Of a DNA stretch of 64,000 nt, positions 5,201 through 64,000 are shown piece by piece. Each line of letters begins with the position of its first letter. Position 1 is the first letter of the stretch. The notes under the pieces were generated by a model. That model saw nothing but the letters and a program-made list of their open reading frames with translations. It had not been told where the DNA came from and did no database searches. This stretch comes from Apostichopus japonicus (taxonomy: Eukaryota > Echinodermata > Holothuroidea > Aspidochirotida > Stichopodidae), in the NCBI RefSeq assembly GCF_037975245.1, contig NC_092571.1:15743917-15807916 (forward strand), given 5' to 3'. A program made the translations under genes and the position numbers.

Positions 5201-8200
5201 CTTGTTCTTCAGTTCCTCACAATGAAAAAGAGTAAGAATTTAGCCTCCTACATCAACAAGAGGGAACCTAAAATCATTCAACGGGCACTGAGTTTTCATC
5301 ATACCATTTGCTGATCTGAATATGCATTAAAATGGCCATAACGAGACTGATTTACTCTTTCCATGTTTCTGCCCTCCCCACCACCTCCTACTCTCCCTCC
5401 ATCTCAATCCAACACCCCACCCCCACTTCCGATCAATTTTTTCTTTTTTTGGGGGGGGGAGGGACACTTGAAAAAAGTGAATTAAAAGATAGAAATATTA
5501 AACAAAACCAAAAATCTCTTACCCTGCCACTATCTCATAGAGCTGCCTAGAGACACGATAGTAGCCTTCAAAGTTATACGGGATCGTCCGCAACTCTGGG
5601 CACAGCTCTTTAGCCGTCTTCATGATCATTCCATTCCTGACTCCAGCTAGCCTAGCTTCGTAGCTGCAGGAAGCAATGGCCGCCAAGGAAGAGAAGTTCT
5701 CGCTCTCCGACGCTACGAGCGTCTGTGGAGACGGCTCAGTTTTATGGACTTGAGGCAGACTGTCGGATCGGTCCACTCCGTCACCGATCTCGCCGCCGCC
5801 TTTAATGCCATTCCGCAAAATTTCAGGCTTATCCTTCCCGGCCCAAAACTCCATGCAGTGAGTCTTCTGGTTTGAATATTTCTGTGAGAGACTCTTTTCA
5901 TTCCAGTTCTTCAACGATTTGTTCACAGGCTTCCCGGCGTAGTGAGCCACGGCGACCGGTTTTCCGGCTAATTCCGGATAATTCAGGAGACTGACCTTGA
6001 CGAAGAAGGCGTCCATGTCTATATGCATCATGACACGGTCATCGTCATCGTCTTCCACTCTCCATTCGCCGGAAGCTTCCGGGGCGGCGCCGTCCGAGTC
6101 CCGCTTTTCCAGTTTGTTATCCCTCAGCTTTTTCTGGTCAGAGTTGACTCTGTTTTTACCGTACATAGCGATGAGCTTCTGCTTACTGGGGAAAGTCCCG
6201 TCGCTGTTCCTGTGCAGTTCTTTCACGAACAGTCTATGCTCGGCTCTCCAAGTGGTCAGGTGGTAGAAACTGGAGTGCCGGTAGAACGACGGCAAAAAGT
6301 TTGGATCTGTGGACTTTGGAAAGTACAATTTACCAAACTCAGGAGGGTCCGTAATATCTTCGCTATTATCATCAATCTTACATTCTTCTGTCTTAAGCTT
6401 TGGTGACTTCTCGTTAGAAGAAGGAGAAGAAGCAGTGGCGTTGACTGGACCGGTGTGGCTTACTATGGTTTTAGTTCCTTCCTGAGAGACTCTCTTTTTA
6501 GAACTACGGTCACTTTCAATTTCTCTGGTGGTTTTTATGCAATTTAAGTCGTCTCTGTTAGCAGACTTTTTCTGTCTGCTATAACAAGTCATACCTTTCT
6601 CTCCCAGCTTTTCAGACCATGACCGATCGACCCTCTTGAGTTCATGGGTTGCGAATTTCTCTGATGGTATGTCGCCCTCGTGAATGACAGGGGCAGGAAA
6701 CGTGTCACCTTTCCTGACTGTATCCGTGACATCATCACATCTGTCCGGCTTTGAGTCAGTAGTCCGGGCAATATCGGTTTCTTCCTCCGTGGGAGATTTT
6801 GATACTTTTTCTCTCTTGTGATCAGAGGAAGGGTAGTAGCCCTCTGAAGTAACATTTCTCGAAACAGATTCCGGATTGGTGATGAGTGAACTAGCTTCAC
6901 CCTTGCTCTCTGTCGCATGCTGGACTCGGTCCAATCTGGAAAGTTTCTTGTCAGCGAACCTGTGCAGTGTCTGATTTGATGCCTTTGGTCTGTACAGTAT
7001 ATATGGTGCATGGGGTAGTAGCTTACCAGCTTTTAAACTGTAAAAACAGAAGAAAAAAACTTCATGGATAAGCAAATAATGGTTGCATTTCAACACCATG
7101 GAAAACTGGGTCTGCTTCCCTTCCTCCCCTCCCCTCCACACCCCCCCCCCTTCCAAATCTCAATCATATTTTGCATTCCCTAGTAATGATGTAAGCTTTC
7201 AAGTTAGTGTGACAAGAAATTCATCAGAAAAACCAAGAATTTTTTATCCTCTCCAAAACAAAACACATAGCACCTCTATATGCAGATAATAATATTTTCT
7301 TACCTATCAGTGATCCAGGCTGGTCTTACCACCTTTTCATTCTTCAATTCTTTGATTTTAGTATAGGCAAGATTGGAGGCTATGATGTGAGTAGTGTTAG
7401 CCTTGGTTGGATAGTAAATAAACCTCCCACCATGCATCATCATTAACCTTTTAAGCTTCTCTGCTGGGGGATCTAGAATAGAACAAAACAAACCATCTTG
7501 TAAATTTAATGCAAAACCAAGAATGTGGAAAAGAAGTAAGCTTTGTATAGTTTGTACAAAATATTGTACTAGTTGTGAATATGATGAGAACTAGAGCAAG
7601 GATTTTATAACACGGTCAGCAGCTGCTTTAATTTTGGGATGATATATTGTATTTGCACACCTCCCTATATCCATGTACTTTTGCACACTTTACTATTTAG
7701 TAATTGCACACATTACTATTTGTTTGTCTTTTTGCACACATTGGCATGTATTTTGCACACATTACTATTGGTAACATTTGGTCTCTTATTAAACAATGTC
7801 AGTGTTTTGGGCAATAGCCAAACATCAATGGATAAAAAAGTAAGTTTCATCCACTACGTACTCTTTCTAAACACTACCCATTGTCATGAAATCCAGAAAT
7901 GATGGCCAGCTTACCTGTGTAACCATTCACATATATTGAAACACCTTTAAAAATACTAGAGGTGCCATTCTTGTCACACTTGCCGGCATCTAGCTGGAAT
8001 TGGCTGGCAAGTTTAGCAGCTTTCTTCTTCATGTAGGCTTCCTATAAAAATATAGATGTTGGAAAAATAATCAACATACTGTTTATATGCATAATGCACA
8101 GGATACAAGCTGCCATAACATGCTTTCAATTACATTGGGAATGAAAGTGTTAGATTTGCATCTGAACATTTTTCAAAGGCATGAGGCATTTGTGTATTTT

Positions 8201-28800: not shown

Positions 28801-31800
28801 AAAATGTGCGAAGGGAAATGATCTCTCTTTTTTTCTTTTTCTTTTTTAAAAAGGGAGTGATTGATAACAAAAACGGTTGTCAGAGCGTTCCCAGCTCCTG
28901 CTACCAAGTATGATTATAGATGAAGGTGATTACATTAGGCTACTCAACATAGATTTAAAATTTTCAATGTACGAAAGATTTAAAGTAATACAGTTAGGAA
29001 CGTACTGTAGTAACTCATGAAATACTGCTATGACATTTTGAATATATTACGCATATTTTTAGTATAGTGATATACTTAAATAGTAGAAACTTTTCGTATG
29101 ACATTGATAACATAGCGTACCCAAATAAACTCTAAACTTAATTCAAATTGTAAAGATGCTTGTGGCAAAAAAAAAACCTCTAAGAAAGATCACAAGTATA
29201 TTAATCCAGATTGGGAGATAAATTGACTTAGAACATGAAAGAAGATTGTATTATCAATGTTATCAAAATGGCAGTTTTACCGTAAGTAGTCAATATATTT
29301 TAATGAGCTATTTCCTTACTGATAATGGCGGACTCCAGAACTGGAACGTCGGTCATAGCTTGTAGAGTGAACACTGTATTAACACCTTCCGTGACGGTAC
29401 CTGTAATCACCTGGACTTCAACATTTACGGCTGAGGGGGGAATTAGATAAGAATGAACAAAATGGATCATTTACCCAAATCGATTTGAGATATACGCTGC
29501 TCCACTTGATATTTTCTGAAAAGATGGCAGAGGCACTAGTAGCAATGAAAGGCCATTGTCAATGTGATCACCTCCCTCCCCACCCCTCTCCTCCCTCTCG
29601 GTGTTCAGGGTTTATTCGAAACCAGATTCAGCAACTATAACTGTTGAATGTACGTTCATTCATACTTAATAAAGATTCCTAAATCCTATTGGTCCATTCA
29701 GGTCAGCTGACCGTGGTTAATCCTGTGAGTAACGCACGGTAAAATTACGGGGCATCACTTTAATAAATCTTTGGTTATATGTAACCAAAAATGTTTTGTT
29801 TGATGATTTTTTCCCCCACACAAATGGTAGTGTATGAATGAACGGGGTTAATCAACGGTCTAGCGTGCGCTACTCACATGATTAATGCACTCCGGGTGTT
29901 AATGCTATCGCTGGATGCACTCGGGCTCCGCCCTCGTGCATCGCTTGCATTATCCCCCGATCGTGCATTAATCCTGTGAGTAACGCACGCTAGACCGTTG
30001 ATTAACCCCTTATTTATATCAATATATAAAAATGATATCGTTGCGACAGGAAATAGAGGAGGCTCCAGTCGTGACACATACGTCACCGTGTGACTCCTGC
30101 AACGTTGTTTGGTCTTCAAAATATGTAACCTATATATTCGTTCCGGGTCTTTATTGCAGATATCAAAGAGAGAAGAGTAAATATTGACAATCCTGTTCCT
30201 CCTCGCCCCCTCCCTCCCTCCCTCCCTCCCTCCCTCCCTCCCTCCCTCCCTCCCTCCCTCCCTCCCTCCCTCCCTCCCTCCCTCCCTCCCTCCCTCCCTC
30301 CCTCCCTCCCTCCCTCCCTCCCTCCCTCCCTCCCTCCCTCCCTCCCTCCCTCCCTCCCTCCCTCCCTCCCTCCCTCCCTCCCTCCCTCCCTCCCTCCCTC
30401 CCTCCCTCCCTCCCTCCCTCCCTCCCTCCCTCCCTCCCTCCCTCCCTCCCTCCCTCCCTCCCTCCCTCCCTCCCTCCCTCCCTCCCTCCCTCCCTCCCTC
30501 CCTCCCTCCCTCCCTCCCTCCCTCCCTCCCTCCCTCCCTCCCTCCCTCCCTCCCTCCCTCCCTCCCTCCCTCCCTCCCTCCCTCCCTCCCTCCCTCCCTC
30601 CCTCCCTCCCTCCCTCCCTCCCTCCCTCCCTCCCTCCCTCCCTCCCTCCCTCCCTCCCTCCCTCCCTCCCTCCCTCCCTCCCTCCCTCCCTCCCTCCCTC
30701 CCTCCCTCCCTCCCTCCCTCCCTCCCTCCCTCCCTCCCTCCCTCCCTCCCTCCCTCCCTCCCTCCCTCCCTCCCTCCCTCCCTCCCTCCCTCCCTCCCTC
30801 CCTCCCTCCCTCCCTCCCTCCCTCCCTCCCTCCCTCCCTCCCTCCCTCCCTCCCTCCCTCCCTCCCTCCCTCCCTCCCTCCCTCCCTCCCTCCCTCCCTC
30901 CCACTCACTGCCTCTCGTAGTGCCCTGTAAGTGATGGAAGCTATAATTATTGCTCTAATGACGTCACATACCTTCGTCACATTCTGCTCCTTGGTAACCT
31001 TGGTTACAGACACATGTCTTCACACAAACTCCACCATTCACACAGGGAGTTGGACAGGCTGAAAATGGCATGAAAGAAATTGTGCTTATTAACGTCTGTA
31101 TAAGATTATATATAGAGAACGACTCGCAATGTGAACAAAATGATTTCAAATATCACTTAAATTGCTCAAATATAAAACTATATATATAGGCATGACAAAT
31201 GATAATTAATGTGCTTCTTACCGGGATCAATCACTCTAACTTCAAACAAAACTCCTCTGCCAACAGTACCGTCGGTTGTCATGGGAACGAACTCCACCTT
31301 CATTCGATCATCGGCTCCTAATATCAGTGCATTGATTACATCAAAATTCATCATCGCTCCGCCTGAACTGTATGGTATATTCGTAGCCGATTCGTCCCCG
31401 GTAAATCGAAAGATTCTACCGTTAGATCCCCTTTGAAGAAACTGAAACCGATCTCGGTCACCGTCGACATCGAAATCGCGGATAATTAGGTATAATTCAC
31501 TACCGGTTGGAGCTGTGAACAACCAGTGGCATTCTGCATTGTCGTCGTAAACACCAGGTGCATAGTAACCACCGGTGGCAGCCAGCTGATACGAACCTGC
31601 TTCGGTGTAAGAGAGGAATAGTTCGTGCGCGTTTGCGTTGTCAGGGTTACACGTCGTATCGGCCGTTAAAGCGTTGATATCTACAAATCCATCCGCGGTT
31701 GCTATGGATAAAGTATAAGAATATACTTAAAAAATTGTTATCGTTTAGGCTTGCTTCCATATCATTGGCTCATGTCGACGTATTAATCATTGAAACCTCC

Positions 31801-55674: not shown

Positions 55675-55744
55675 TCATGGTTTTGACTTGCAGGATGTTA
55701 GTATGAGGTCTGCTATCTCTGGTACTCCAACCATATGCTTTACT

Positions 55745-55972
55745 TGAGCAAAGATGGTTGGACCATTCTGCCTCATCAAATCTGCATCTCTCTTCATCAC
55801 CTGACAGGATGAAATGGAGAAAATATCATGATAGTTTGTACCAGCAACTGTTTGTACCTTGAGCAAAGATGGTTGGACCATTCTGCCTCATCAAATCTGC
55901 ATCTCTCTTCATCACCTGACAGGATGAAATGGAGAAAATATCATGATAGTTTGTACCAGCAACCAACAACTG
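55745..55972. repeat. Tandem duplication (114 bp) covering the start of the last UreG exon
   Basis: The stretch beginning TTGAGCAAAGATGGTTGGAC at 55745 recurs at 55859, essentially identical over 114 bp. It includes the exon's first 56 bp, its acceptor (CTGACAGG on +) and intron sequence. In gene sense the upstream copy offers a second acceptor and part of a second last exon. Confidence 0.93.
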
Positions 55973-57599
55973 TATCCAAGTTTGAATACAATCTGATTTA
56001 AGGTTGTGGAGTTATTGCAAGTTTTAAAATTGGGCCCAATAAAATTCTGCATATTAATGGTCCCAAAAATTTTGGGCCCCACAAATCCTGGCCCCAAAGA
56101 ATGTGTCCCAAAATGCATTTGAGGTGGAAATAAAATTTTGGCCCACACAGCCTAATATTGGACCCGGAATTTTTGTGGGCCAGATGGTCCCAAAATAATT
56201 AAGCCTGCATGTACCAGATATTAACCAACAACTATATACCAAGTTTGGCTACAATCTGACTCCACGAACCCAAGCAAGTGTCACAGACGCACACACACAC
56301 ACACAAGCCAACCTGTCTATAGGTTCCAGCAAGGAACGAAAAATGGCAAAACATGTCATGATTCACTTATAGTAATCTGGTAATGTTACTTCTCATACCA
56401 TGTGAATTTAATTTAATACAATACATATTAATAATTGTAGCATTAGAAGAAAACAGGAACAACAATTTATGGCAATATTTCAAAGGGAAATAATTATTGT
56501 AATGTTAAGCCCACATTACAACATTTCATTAGCAATTGTATCTGAATCCAAAATAGATTTAGATGCAAATGGAAGCAGAATTTGACAGTTTTAAGCCTAC
56601 TTCACCAATATCAAACACTTGGTTGATGGAGTTAAAGAATGTCATCAAGCTGTTTAGGTAAGGTATAAATTAAGTGCATCCTCTTGGAGACAAGAATATC
56701 TAATTATATACTTGTATATATATTGAAGTCTTGCTCCACAATCGGAGAACATTCCAACCATGAGGGTCATGTGACCTGCTCCCAGGTGCTTCTGACATAT
56801 TCTTTAACCCTTACTTTGTGCAAGAGTTTAGTAGACAAAAGAATGCCACAAGGGAGCATGTGACATGACCCTCCATGGTTGGTACAATTTCTGTGCATCT
56901 CCTGATTGACATAGTTGGTCCATGTTCATATATTTATGCTGATGGGCAAGAATATTGCTTCAAAGCAATGAAATTTACTGCTTAAGCTACTGGATGTCAT
57001 CCAGACTGCATTACAGCTTGATAGTTGTAACCAATTGTAGAAACTCCTTGAAGACCAGAGACACAAAAACATTGAACACATAGACAAACCTCTAAGCTGG
57101 CTTCTACAGCATCAGCAATATCTGTCTTATTCACAACCAGTAAATCGCTTTGGGTGATTCCTGGTCCTCCCTTACGCGGAATTTTATCCCCACCTAAAAT
57201 TGGAAGGTTAAAAGATCGACAATGTAAAAATAGTACAAAGAAAAATGTCTGTCTGCCCTTCTAAGAAATAGCCCGAAGGATATTTCAACATCAAGGGTTA
57301 TAGTTGTAACAAAGATTTTGCAAAAAGACTCCAGTGCCAAACAGAGATATCCTAAAGGTGGAAGTTTGACTATATACAAGACCTTGATTGAAGCAGGTTG
57401 TACTTGAGAAATGTCACTTCTTTCATGAAACAGCACTAAACCTTTACAGTGATTTTTTTGTGGTTTAGGCAGTTTTGGTTCAAAAATCGTATCCTGGTGA
57501 AGAGTGGGAACACCAAATATTGCCTAGAAGAGCTGCTCTAATTACATTGTTGCAAGCTTTACACCTGGAAGTAAAGCAATGTCTCCCCACCTTCCTTCC

Positions 57600-57856: not shown

Positions 57857-59777
57857 AGAATCATGCCTCACCCTAAATCAGTGGGGCATAATTTAGAATT
57901 TTCCCCCCCACCCCCAACCAATAAAATAACACAATGTTGATGGCTTGTCAATCAGTATGAAAGTGTGGATTGCAACTACTTTGCAATCATGAAATTAAGT
58001 TATCTTTGGCCATTAAGCAAGCATTAACAAGTACTGAGTCTGTTGAAGAACCAAGACCGGGTTGTTCCTTCAGTCAAAATGAATGCCACATGTACTATTG
58101 CTTACCTGCGACGTCTATAACATAGATAATGTAATCTGCTTATTCCCTGCTGAAGTTAGCAGCCAGATTATCACCTCCTGATTCCACAAGAATAATCTCT
58201 GGCTTAAATTCCTTTGTAAGGTCTCTTATAGTCTCCATGTTGATTGAATAGTCCTGCAATTTGAAATAAACATCGTCGTGGCAAAAGTGTCTTCAAAATT
58301 CTTAATAATTTTTCATGGCTTAAGCCAGCATAATTCAAACAAGATCCTCAAAACGTTTCTGGTATTGATGAGAGATATTTAAGGAAGTGTTGAAGACACT
58401 TCTTAAGGAATGTGTCCAGATTTTAAGATAGTGTCGCTATGGCAATTTCAAGATTGTCTTGGAGTACCTCTCTTATGGCTGCATGAGGGCAGCCTCCGGT
58501 TTCCACAGCTCTCATCCTCTCTTCTGGTAAAGCTTTATTTTGTACTAAGAATTCCCAGTCTTCCCTGTAATGGAAGTGAAAGAAACCTTTTTTTTTCATT
58601 AGTTACTTATTTATTAAGAAACAGTGTAAAACAAATTTAGGTTCAAAGTTCACACCTAGCTTATATGGCGATATATTAGGCTGCCTATAAGTCTATAGAA
58701 AGAACTGTTGGAAAGTAATGATGAGATATGTATGACAAAGATAGCATTTTAATCCATATAATCAGTTCAATATGACTGAACAAATATTCAGGTCCATCTG
58801 TGTGAGGACCATTCAATCCTCTAATTAAGCCAAAATGATGGACAAAACCCCAAAATTAACTGGTTTGCATATTTTACGAATCACAATACTCACCTGTCCT
58901 ACACATAAATCACTCCAATCTACCCTAGCCTATGAAGAACTGGTAACATTCTTGCACTGTGACCCTAAAGACCCTCATAAAATATCACTGCCCCTCTTCC
59001 TACCAGATCTACCATCCAGAAGACTAAAATGTGCATTTCTATATCCACAGATAATGTAGTACCAGATGTGAAAGATGAAATATCCTGCTCAAAAACATGC
59101 AGATATAAAGGGATGGGGGTATTAGTGCCATACCAAATGAGGAAATGACTTGCAAAAAATGCAGTAAACTGTATTTTTTCAACAAGTTTAAAAGGTCCAC
59201 TGATCTTTACCTTGTAAATATATCATTGGTAACCACACAAACTCCAATCTTTTCCCTTAGGTGTTTGCACAGCGATAGCACGAGGGCGGTCTTCCCCGAA
59301 CCGACTGGTCCTCCGATACCTACAGTGAAAGCTCTCTGAAAGAATGGATGGAAAATAACTGAAAAAGATTGACTTTAAAAAGTCACAATCTCTTGATTAA
59401 TTTGGATTGGCGTAGATCATTACGAAAAAAAGAAAAAATACCTGCTATCAGTCTAAGTAGTATTTCTATAATACTTTCCATTTTTTGACAAATGACCATT
59501 TCAGATGATCTGAAGCTCAGTGATTAATTAAGGTGATCAAACTACTTAGTTGTACACTCTCTGGGTGATGGAAACTTAAAAACTAAAAAACTGAATGAAT
59601 TGATTGCAATGGAGATCTTCAGCAGAGCTTGGGAAGCATCTAGATCAAGATTACAGTCACAACTTTTGCCTCATTTTGGCAGCTTTCATGTAAAATTAGA
59701 CTAGACCCATAGGTAAATCTGTTACGAGAATGGGAGCCTACTTTTATACTCCATCCTACTTTTTCATGGTTGAACAT

Positions 59778-60168
59778 CAGTGGCGGAGCGTCCATACAGT
59801 CAGAGGGGGCGGATGCCCCCCTGACGGACTCAAATGGACTGCTGGCGCCCTTTTCAGCTTGTTACCACTTTTTACTTATTCGCGATTATTGACTTTTTTA
59901 TTGCGCTCTCAAATACCTATTGACATTTGTCACACTTTGTTGGTGTAATTTTCTGACAAAATGGCGATGACACCTATTTATTCTTTGTTTATCTGCAAAT
60001 AAGCAAGGCCCGGAAAGGGTCATTTCCGGCAATCTAGGGAGTATCTTTACTCAAAATATTTCTGTACGCTCCGCGCCAACCTGTGGTGGTGCTCCGCTTA
60101 GATAGTGTCGAAAGCGCCCTACAGACCATTTTCGCCCCCTCTGACCAATACCCCTAGCTCCGCCACTG
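59778..60168. mobile_element. hAT-type non-autonomous element (391 bp) with 8-bp target duplication
   Basis: The ends CAGTGGCGGAGC and GCTCCGCCACTG are perfect inverted copies. They are flanked by TTGAACAT at 59770-59777 and 60169-60176. The interior carries core repeat copy C (60006-60110), which links it to the 40-42 kb cluster. No transposase frame is present. It lies in a UreG intron. Confidence 0.93.
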
Positions 60169-60764
60169 TTGAACATCACGCTGTGGTGAGACCAATTCAA
60201 CATCCTGACAGTGTAGTTTTCTGGGGTTTTTTTCCATTAAATTGTAAAACCTCACTGAGACAGTTTAATTAACTCAGGGAATGATTATGTGGGTCCCCTT
60301 AAGAACTAGAAGGAAAGTAAAACCTGAGGATTGCCAGAGTTTAGCCTGTTAACATATTTATGAATAGTATCACAGTAACATTTTATGACCTTCATGTGTC
60401 AAATTATAATTTAATACATGGCAATTCTTTTCTTTAATGATCATTTTTATTGCAGATACAGTGCAATCCCCCCCCCCCCACACCCACCACCCTTTCCATC
60501 CCACCCCAAATGTAGGGTCAAAAACGAAAATGAAAAAGTCTCAGAGATGTGAGTAATATGAGAGCTATAAATGTTTAAACTTGAAAAAAAACATGACAGT
60601 GATGACATCATAACTGTAACCGAGTTTACTCGCGAGAAGAGCTATGCGATTAATCGACTACAAAAGAAAGAGTCCACTATCAGCACTAGGAGATACCGCA
60701 GATTAAATGTTCTTTTACAAGCAACGGTAGATCGAGAGTGCTAAGGTTTGTGGGGAGACAAGGC

Positions 60765-61150
60765 TGGAGACTTGATCAAGTCTAAAATATAACATCAGTG
60801 CTTTATAAATTACTCTAACCTTTTCCTTTATTTATTAACATCTGCCATGGAGGGTGCGTGTTTGCAAATTATGCTGAATCTAAAATATTAGAGCTCTTAA
60901 GTTAATGACCTAATGAGGGCAGGGGTTTCTAGTGTCAACAACATTGTTAACATTTTACACTGGAAATATGAAAAGGAAAAAAAAAAGGGGGAATGTAAAA
61001 GGATTTCAGATCCTAGTTTTGTAACTATGACATTACAGATTCACACTACCTCCCAGACTCAACTTTTTAACTAGGATATCTCCCCAAAAACAGAGCAAGA
61101 TTTTCTCTTGGCTGTTTGGCAAAGTTAAATGCTTTGCAAAGATCTCTGTG
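60765..61150. repeat. Unclassified interspersed repeat, copy 2
   Basis: Shares ordered blocks with 9555-9910 (GAGACTTGATCAAGTCTAAA, GATCCTAGTTTTG, TATGACAT, CCCAGAC, GATATCTCCCCA, GGCTGTTTGG). It lies in a UreG intron. The remainder of 59340-62940 gave no convincing coding exon. Confidence 0.45.
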
Positions 61151-64000
61151 ACATACGCAAAAAGATGATGGATTGGTTTGTGTCTTCTTATACAGTTCAA
61201 AACAACATGCAAATTGAATATTTCCGGACTTCCTAGCAGAACAATATAACCAAAATTGCTTAAATCGGGTGTAAATAAATTAGCAATTTTTATATGACCC
61301 ATGTGTGATGCTGTATTACAATATATGACATATATACAATTACTGAGGTCTGTGAGTTGCACGCAATGGTGTTCACCAGCCTTGCACGAAATAAAAAGAG
61401 GGCGCTGTCACACATCGGTCATATCCAGTTGCGTGTGAAACTTGACGAGCTGAAGTCAGATCTGATACAAGTTTTTGAGACATATTTTCAAGTTCAACGT
61501 TTCAAGTCAAAACTGACTGAACATTTTCAGCATCTGTTTTCTTAACATTTTTTGCCCCGTTCGTCCAAACTGCACTGTAGGTAAAATAGCTATAAAGTCA
61601 ATCACCCAGTGCATCTTTATCATGCAAGTTGGTGTCCAGTGCGTTTGCATGCTAAGTGAGTGCTTTCACACGTTTGTGTTTGGCATTGTTATGAACGCAG
61701 GATCTTTTAGCCAGGGACGCAAAACATTCAAATTGCTTGCGTCCTGCGGAGGCAAACTTGTTTTTTTCAGGGTACAAACCCCAAAGACATGCACACACTC
61801 ACAATAAGGCCTATCCAAAGCATAACAAACACTTTTTCGAATGAATATCTTTCTTTCTTTCTGAAGTTTCAAAAAACCACAACTTTTCAAAAGAACCAAA
61901 ATTTCTTCCGATCCTAATACACAGATGATTGAATTTGTTTGGAAATAAATAAATCATAATGTTGAATCAACTGCAGAGTACAATACTCCCATTAAAAAGA
62001 TTTTCAAGCTGAAAGTAGCCAATGATACTTTTCCATATTTCCTGTGATTTGATTGGCTTATAGTCCCTTGCCATTGTCTGCAAACATTCTTGCAATCTAT
62101 AGTCAGTGCTCAACGAACACTAAAAGTATGTTGTTTAAATACAACTACAACGTTACTGTCCTCTGTGTAGAGATAGCGAAGTTTGTACTATAGGTTATCA
62201 TAATTATGTGTGCACTCAAATATAATACAGTTAAGTGTTGTTGACACATATATGACAAGAGACACTCATATGGTAGGAAGTTGAATTTGTTTCTAAGAAT
62301 ATCACGTATATTTCAATCATTCTTTTGATCACAAAATGTTATGAGTTATGACAATTTATGAATTTTGTGGGAAGCTAACATCTCTGATACTGAAAAGGAT
62401 TTTTCATCTCACAGTATGTTTGTTCTCTCCACATGGAGAGTTGCAGAATGTGGATTCACACCAACAGTAAATTTCTTCATCGCAAACTTGCATAAATTTT
62501 TCCAGTCCTTTTGACAACATGCTTCAGTTAAAATTTGTTGTGAGTGTAAACTATATAAACTTCGTCAAGAGTAGCCATTTGCGCTTGAGGTTTTCATCAA
62601 AATTGCGTAAAAAGCTATTTATATACTGTAGTAGGAAAGAGGTCAAAACTGGCTGGGGTTGGGCCGACTTGCTTACAGTGGTTGGGGAAGAAAGGAAAAG
62701 TTTGTTCAACTTTGAATAAAAACTTAAGAATAAAATTGCATTGGGTAACTGTTAATGATTAACTTATGACAGGGGCTTATACACGTTGTGAGCAAGTACT
62801 AGGCCCTATAGGGGCATGTTCTTGTGAGATCTATACGTAACATTTTCTATGCACATCATTTACGGGCCTCAATTAAATCAGTTAAAAGTGTGGTACATAT
62901 ATTCTTGCACTTTCTCTCTATGCACTCATTCCACTTTACATTGTCCCAGGATTCTCCATGGCTTCATGACTTTGACCGTGTTCATGATGGTGATCATGGG
63001 AGTGTGCATGACCATGGTTCCCTTTCGATTCAGCGAAGTTTCCCTCTGTTAACAAAAGCCAAGAACAGGGATGAGCCTGGGGTTGACAAAAAATCACGGA
63101 ACTTTGCAAAAATTGTGGTATAGGCTCCAGTTTGCGTATGCTACAGTGTGTTAGGATAAGTTTTTGTCCCTGAGGTAGAAAAGAAATCACGGATATTCCG
63201 GGAATACGTGGAAAAAGCTCATGCCTGCAAGAATCTCAAGTTACCTTTCTTTTCTTTCTTTCTTTGTTCATGTGTGTATTGCCTGTCACAAGTACAGCTT
63301 TTTTTTTTACCTGTTTGGCCTCCCATAGTATGATAGAGTTTGTTCTCCCTTACTGTTGAGTATGTAGATGGTATCTCACCACAATTAGAGTTATGCATGT
63401 CCACCTGCAAGGTTAACCATCCGAGAAAAACACAAGAGTAACCTACCGTCTTGACTTTTTTGACATTTTTCTAAGTCATCATCATTCTTTTTGATGCTTG
63501 GACGCTGAACTTTGAGCTCTTCTAGCTCAAAATCTAAACAGTCATGATGGCAAAAGTTGAATGTGCTGTGAAAGCTCATGCCGTTAGCTACGATATGGTG
63601 GGTACGACAGGAACAGTTAAAAAACTTCTATCTATGCTCTAGCAGCCTTGGAAAGCGACCAATTTAGTGTGTAAAGTCAATGGAGCAATTAATTGTGTTG
63701 ATACACCGGTACAGTAGCTGTGGTCCCTGTACTGACTGTTGTGTGAAAATGTGGTGCTATGTTTTGGATTGGTCATCTTGAAAGCATTACTGACTACCTC
63801 TGCTTTTTGAGTGGACTTATATGCTCAACAGCAGTGGACCATAGTGGTTTTTGCTGCAAGTACAATTTTGCCTAGAGCTAGTAGTTTGAGTAGTTTAGTC
63901 CAGCTGTCAGTGTGTGATATTAACAGAGAAAACTTTGAAGTATTTGGCATAAATAGAAATGTGTACTTCCTGCCCCTCTTGCATGCAAATGACTGCTAAG

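Follow-up and report, generated by a model that had tools for sequence, protein, structure and literature searches.

The stretch analysed here, hereafter the window, covers 64,000 nucleotides of contig C11 of the sea cucumber Apostichopus japonicus (C11:15743917-15807916), within an assembly of 671,581,487 bases and 35 contigs that was searched as a whole; positions given without a contig name are those of the window or, where they run to eight digits, of C11. A gene for the nickel chaperone UreG lies on the minus strand, and its five core exons, when joined, amount to 600 nt including the final stop and give a single UreG frame, broken only by a TAA at codon 112 (Table 1). A likely first exon lies further upstream and would encode a His-rich N terminus, which we take to be typical of eukaryotic UreG. 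An exon linking it to E1 is expected in 59336-62939 and is missing, diverged or too short, the best score in this interval being 21 against 17-27 for the best of 20 shuffles. Elsewhere the window contains a simple repeat of about 0.8 kb (30116-30904), read in several frames as units of GGRE or LPPS, and a 546-aa open frame (5519-7159, minus strand) that matches Y-family DNA polymerase models and probably belongs to a translesion polymerase gene.

Table 1. Exons and lesions of the UreG gene (window positions) and exons of the neighbouring urease gene (C11 positions).
Feature	Position	Strand	Evidence and remarks
Likely first, His-rich UreG exon	62940..63019	-	Open frame NHGHAHSHDHHHEHGQSHEAMENPGT, then GTAAAG; 5' limit and start codon unsettled
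UreG E1	59211..59335	-	P-loop GGPVGSGKT; profile match, tblastn, joined reading
UreG E2	58468..58564	-	ETGGCPH motif; profile match, tblastn, joined reading
UreG E3	58106..58253	-	ESGGDN motif; contains the in-frame TAA; genome profile match, tblastn, joined-exon reading
In-frame TAA, codon 112 of the UreG core	58140..58142	-	Leu in 13/13 compared relatives
UreG E4	57090..57193	-	NKTD motif; profile match, tblastn, joined reading
UreG last exon, E5	55675..55800	-	VMKRDADLMRQNGPTIFAQVKHMVGVPEIADLILTSCKSKP, then stop; read from sequence
115-bp tandem duplication	55743..55963	-	1.9 copies, 100% match; E5 acceptor and first 19 codons copied
Urease gamma exon 1	C11:15814988-15815113		tblastn
Urease gamma exon 2, IQEFIRDGKKDLSEIMNLG	from C11:15817700		Good acceptor before the exon; lax search and DNA reading
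Six C-terminal urease alpha exons	C11:15820176 to stop at 15825792		tblastn and DNA reading

Assignment to UreG relies on the TIGR00101 model, against which the joined frame scored 254.7 bits with X placed at the stop (cut-off 204.2), while the two halves as encoded scored 143.2 and 97.3 bits, neither attaining the cut-off. The P-loop and the NKTD guanine motif are present in E1 and E4, together with a Cys-Pro-His motif in E2, presumably the UreG metal site. The last exon falls within the 254.7-bit match and was also recovered by tblastn with Paracoccus UreG (E 0.052). The gene is thus like UreG as defined by TIGR00101 and by the solved structures 4hi0 and 5xkt in its P-loop, conserved core motif and NKTD, and differs from the family in the stop at a leucine position, in the partial duplication of its last exon and in the sub-cut-off score of each half. 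Searching the whole genome with the UreG model returned four matches, every one an exon of this gene, E5 being absent from them because it is too short; neither a second UreG nor an alternative E3 was found by this profile search in the 671.6-Mb assembly. A bacterial contaminant is excluded by introns with good splice sites and by the 28.4-Mb length of the contig.

The interruption in E3 had been described in the sequence-only reading as an in-frame TAA in an exon with good splice sites, replacing a family leucine, one base from a TTA-type codon and placed ahead of NKTD, and each of these statements holds. Translation gives the TAA in frame, the exon is bordered by the acceptor TTGCAG and the donor GTAAGC in phases consistent with the neighbouring exons, and NKTD is encoded in the exon after E3. 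Leucine occupies the site in 13 of 13 aligned UreGs (all 10 returned genome-contig loci, chosen by likeness to the query and hence near relatives, two plasmid records and one solved structure) and in both solved relatives (4hi0, 5xkt), and TTA is the sole Leu codon one base from TAA. The frame differs from the alignment at 4 of its 61 invariant columns, the TAA being one of the four, so that sense codons are kept at 57 of 61. An in-frame TAA in so conserved a UreG frame is far beyond chance. The further claim that all other sense codons are well kept stands for the reading frame and fails for the gene as a whole, whose last exon contains a tandem duplication of 115 bp that had gone unreported. 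The extra copy of E5 begins at 55915, and a donor-like site, CAAG/GTACAA, comes after it. As read from the sequence, use of the upstream acceptor would take the frame into the intron, where it stops, splicing of both copies as exons would shift the frame, and the normal UreG end would be reached only if copy 1 were skipped; the partial duplication makes UreG splicing ambiguous.

The urease gene is the divergent, head-to-head neighbour of UreG, about 8 kb away (C11:15806935-15814988 lies between them) and outside the window. Searching the window and the next 48 kb (112 kb in all) by tblastn with the Deinococcus and Paracoccus urease proteins yielded gamma exon 1 at 15814988 and alpha exons to about residue 502. 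Reading the DNA added the two final alpha exons, which start at 15824980 and 15825683 and lead to the stop codon at 15825792; joined, they matched Deinococcus UreC 519-559 at 1.4e-9, and the two gamma exons, joined, scored 72.7 bits against PF00547. Pieces of gamma and alpha are found here within one gene. Eukaryotic urease is a fused gene in which gamma and alpha occur together. The urease alpha model matched the genome only at C11:15820152-15824126, covering positions 356 to 518 of the 568 in the profile. The earliest of the alpha exons found starts at 15820176 with the Ala after SDSQ, which is residue 367 of Deinococcus UreC.

Domain, tblastn and motif searches gave no convincing match to the end of gamma, to beta or to alpha 1-366. 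The alpha N-terminal domain (PF00449) and beta (PF00699) each gave 0 matches and 0 candidates genome-wide, urease domains were absent by Pfam from the six frames of L010:1-4202 (a locus on C11), and the active-site patterns HxH, GGxGPA, EGAGGG and GGGHxPD had 0 hits in six frames of the 112 kb, while two control patterns hit as expected, finding UreG E1 and the first alpha exon. The residues that we take to be the nickel ligands (His134, His136, Lys217, His246, His272 and Asp360, K. aerogenes numbering) all belong to the missing part: the first alpha exon begins beyond SDSQ, and neither PF00449 in the genome nor the motif patterns in the 112 kb were found. A bacterial-versus-bacterial control, in which 19 of 19 were found (18 at E < 2e-6 and one at 0.008), overstates the power of such searches, because gamma exon 2 and the two final alpha exons, all truly there, escaped the real local search even with E allowed up to 1. 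Single short or decayed urease exons may go undetected, whereas a stretch of about 450 residues in the best-conserved region of the protein should not. A short stretch directly before the first of these alpha exons, C11:15820034-15820111 (L010:4035-4112), weakly resembles alpha 151-178 (E 0.48 and 1.4 when 5 kb were searched, with no Pfam match) and could be a remnant or a chance match.

What is left of urease is itself apparently damaged at two points. Gamma exon 2 is followed by GRTTC and a stop, then GTATGA, which looks like GRTMLG, presumably the expected end of gamma in this exon, with a 2-bp insertion. In alpha, the exon end at 15822424 and the next exon start at 15823954 are one base out of phase, giving an early stop, and this break would be a frameshift if canonical splice sites are used. 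The interval from gamma exon 1 to the start of the alpha exons contains dispersed repeats that also occur elsewhere in the region and on contig C6, and that do not show the mechanism of the loss; the gap could be a haplotype-specific or an assembly deletion. A 49-bp unit is repeated 17 times at C11:15820485-15821316 (L010:4486-5317), over the donor of the alpha exon that ends at 15820526. This array is built from the 3' end and the donor of that exon, and consists of tandem splice donors; it is the second splice-site duplication in the UreG and urease gene pair.

Among the remaining accessory proteins, UreD and UreF belong to weakly conserved families. One UreD exon was found, on a different contig (C6:7170704-7170811, minus strand), with 30.4 bits and E 1.8e-4, and with 25.8 bits in a second scan (cut-off 27). 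It reads NYGGGLVA, a TGA stop and then DCVDLDITIDEDCCVMLTSQSSTK, the TGA falling at a Gly of the Deinococcus and Paracoccus UreDs in alignments of poor significance (E 0.78 and 3.0). No GT stands right behind the SSTK codons of this exon, where the expectation of a donor is a guess. Further UreD exons were absent by Pfam from 20 kb of C6, minus strand, around the exon, and comparison with two bacterial UreDs over 30 kb gave weak matches only. UreF had 0 matches to PF01730, which is a weak test for a poorly conserved protein whose gene would be split by introns.

The sequence-only reading had proposed looking for these partners in the genome, and had divided the possible causes of the UreG stop among a recent lesion, a null allele, a base error and bypass. 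Urease is present as a gene adjoining UreG, but its active-site half was found neither there nor by domain search genome-wide; UreD is represented by an exon, but one that carries its own stop; UreF was not recovered by its Pfam model. Damage to urease and UreD as well supports a lesion or null and speaks against base error, readthrough or editing. The assembly contains the TAA, the duplication and the UreD stop, and the genome no match to urease beta or to the alpha N terminus. Three genes, spread over two contigs, bear lesions and essential domains are missing, a pattern best fitted by loss of the urease system. The only UreG copy is disabled (by the TAA and the E5 duplication, with no other UreG match), and so are its partners (urease without PF00449 and PF00699, UreD by its TGA). 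We consider it very probable that UreG is a young unitary pseudogene within a decaying urease system of the sea cucumber, and the best reading is a recent loss of that system in the A. japonicus lineage.

Under that reading, UreG, which would normally load nickel into urease, would be cut at codon 112, ahead of the NKTD guanine-specificity motif, leaving either a useless half-protein or a transcript removed by nonsense-mediated decay. Since 138 nt separate the TAA from the last exon junction, decay would be expected, by a rule taken from other animals. The only urease gene found, seemingly frameshifted twice and without everything between gamma exon 2 and alpha residue 367, would offer no working client, and enzyme and nickel chaperones would be breaking together in one lineage, apparently recently. 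From these lesions we infer the order of events, relaxed selection on the genes and a loss that extends beyond this individual.

The assembly represents one haplotype, and the few lesions in UreG and the 100% match between the copies of the duplication indicate that the UreG damage is young. A segregating null haplotype, with a working urease cluster kept by other individuals in a species that still has urease, would account for this and overlaps with the loss of the system; the UreG core is clean apart from the TAA, so the one haplotype at hand could be unusual. We regard such a haplotype as unlikely, since the UreD exon on C6 is broken too and the searches did not recover the greater part of the urease gene; lesions in unlinked genes argue for pathway loss rather than one bad haplotype. 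A base-calling or assembly error in a working gene is far less credible, even though the TAA is a single base from the family leucine. The published A. japonicus assembly comprises 671.6 Mb in 34 scaffolds, with chromosomes of 18.2-46.0 Mb, built from 64x HiFi and 84x Illumina data (PMC10344927), and if the present assembly is that one a random substitution error would be rare at 64x HiFi. An error at the TAA would also leave the urease gene, the UreD stop and the last-exon duplication unexplained. Bypass of the TAA by readthrough, editing or splicing, with UreG still made and perhaps serving a role other than urease, is likewise very improbable and was set aside, as the searches gave no urease with an active site and it would yield a chaperone without a client: the well-kept sense codons (57 of 61 invariant columns) are in its favour, but a recent lesion also predicts a clean frame, skipping of E3 (148 nt) would break the frame, and the genome search gave no further copy of E3. 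A-to-I editing could at most turn UAA into a Trp codon, which would require a change at both As.

Returning to the loss of the urease system, its age can be roughly gauged from UreG itself. Of all neutral substitutions in this frame, 2.6% would create a stop, and one stop without a small indel in 600 nt would fit a neutral divergence of a few per cent, with wide limits and an assumed indel rate. The lesions in urease, UreG and UreD may be recent enough for working copies to persist in sister species or in other individuals, a suggestion that we offer tentatively and with somewhat less than even confidence.

Unitary pseudogenes also mark the loss of other pathways, for example GULO or uricase in primates. 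The present case is like these in having a broken gene with no intact paralogue found, broken partners and a relative reported to have the enzyme gene, and differs from them in that the client enzyme is seen decaying along with its chaperones, long open frames still being left, and in concerning nickel and urease. Urease genes have been reported from the sea urchin, the lancelet, the sea anemone and Aplysia (PMC2667541, PMC3073912); they represent the same enzyme system, whereas in A. japonicus the catalytic half was not found. Urease is patchily present among animals and a urease gene is reported from the sea urchin, and a lineage-specific loss therefore fits. No description of this loss appeared among the titles and opening lines of abstracts listed from the open-licence literature on urease in invertebrates, echinoderms and sea cucumbers, on gene loss and on pseudogenes, and the word "urease" is used 0 times in a sea cucumber genome paper (PMC13228809).

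The pieces of UreG and urease found in A. japonicus show how the patchy presence of urease among animals can arise. Urease is described as the only known nickel-dependent enzyme of eukaryotes (PMC2667541). If the urease system has indeed been lost, urease would no longer give the animal a need for nickel, and whatever urease activity its tissues show would have to be microbial. Should the lesions prove young and the relatives intact, A. japonicus and these relatives would offer a natural comparison, within the echinoderms, between animals with and without nickel-dependent urea breakdown.
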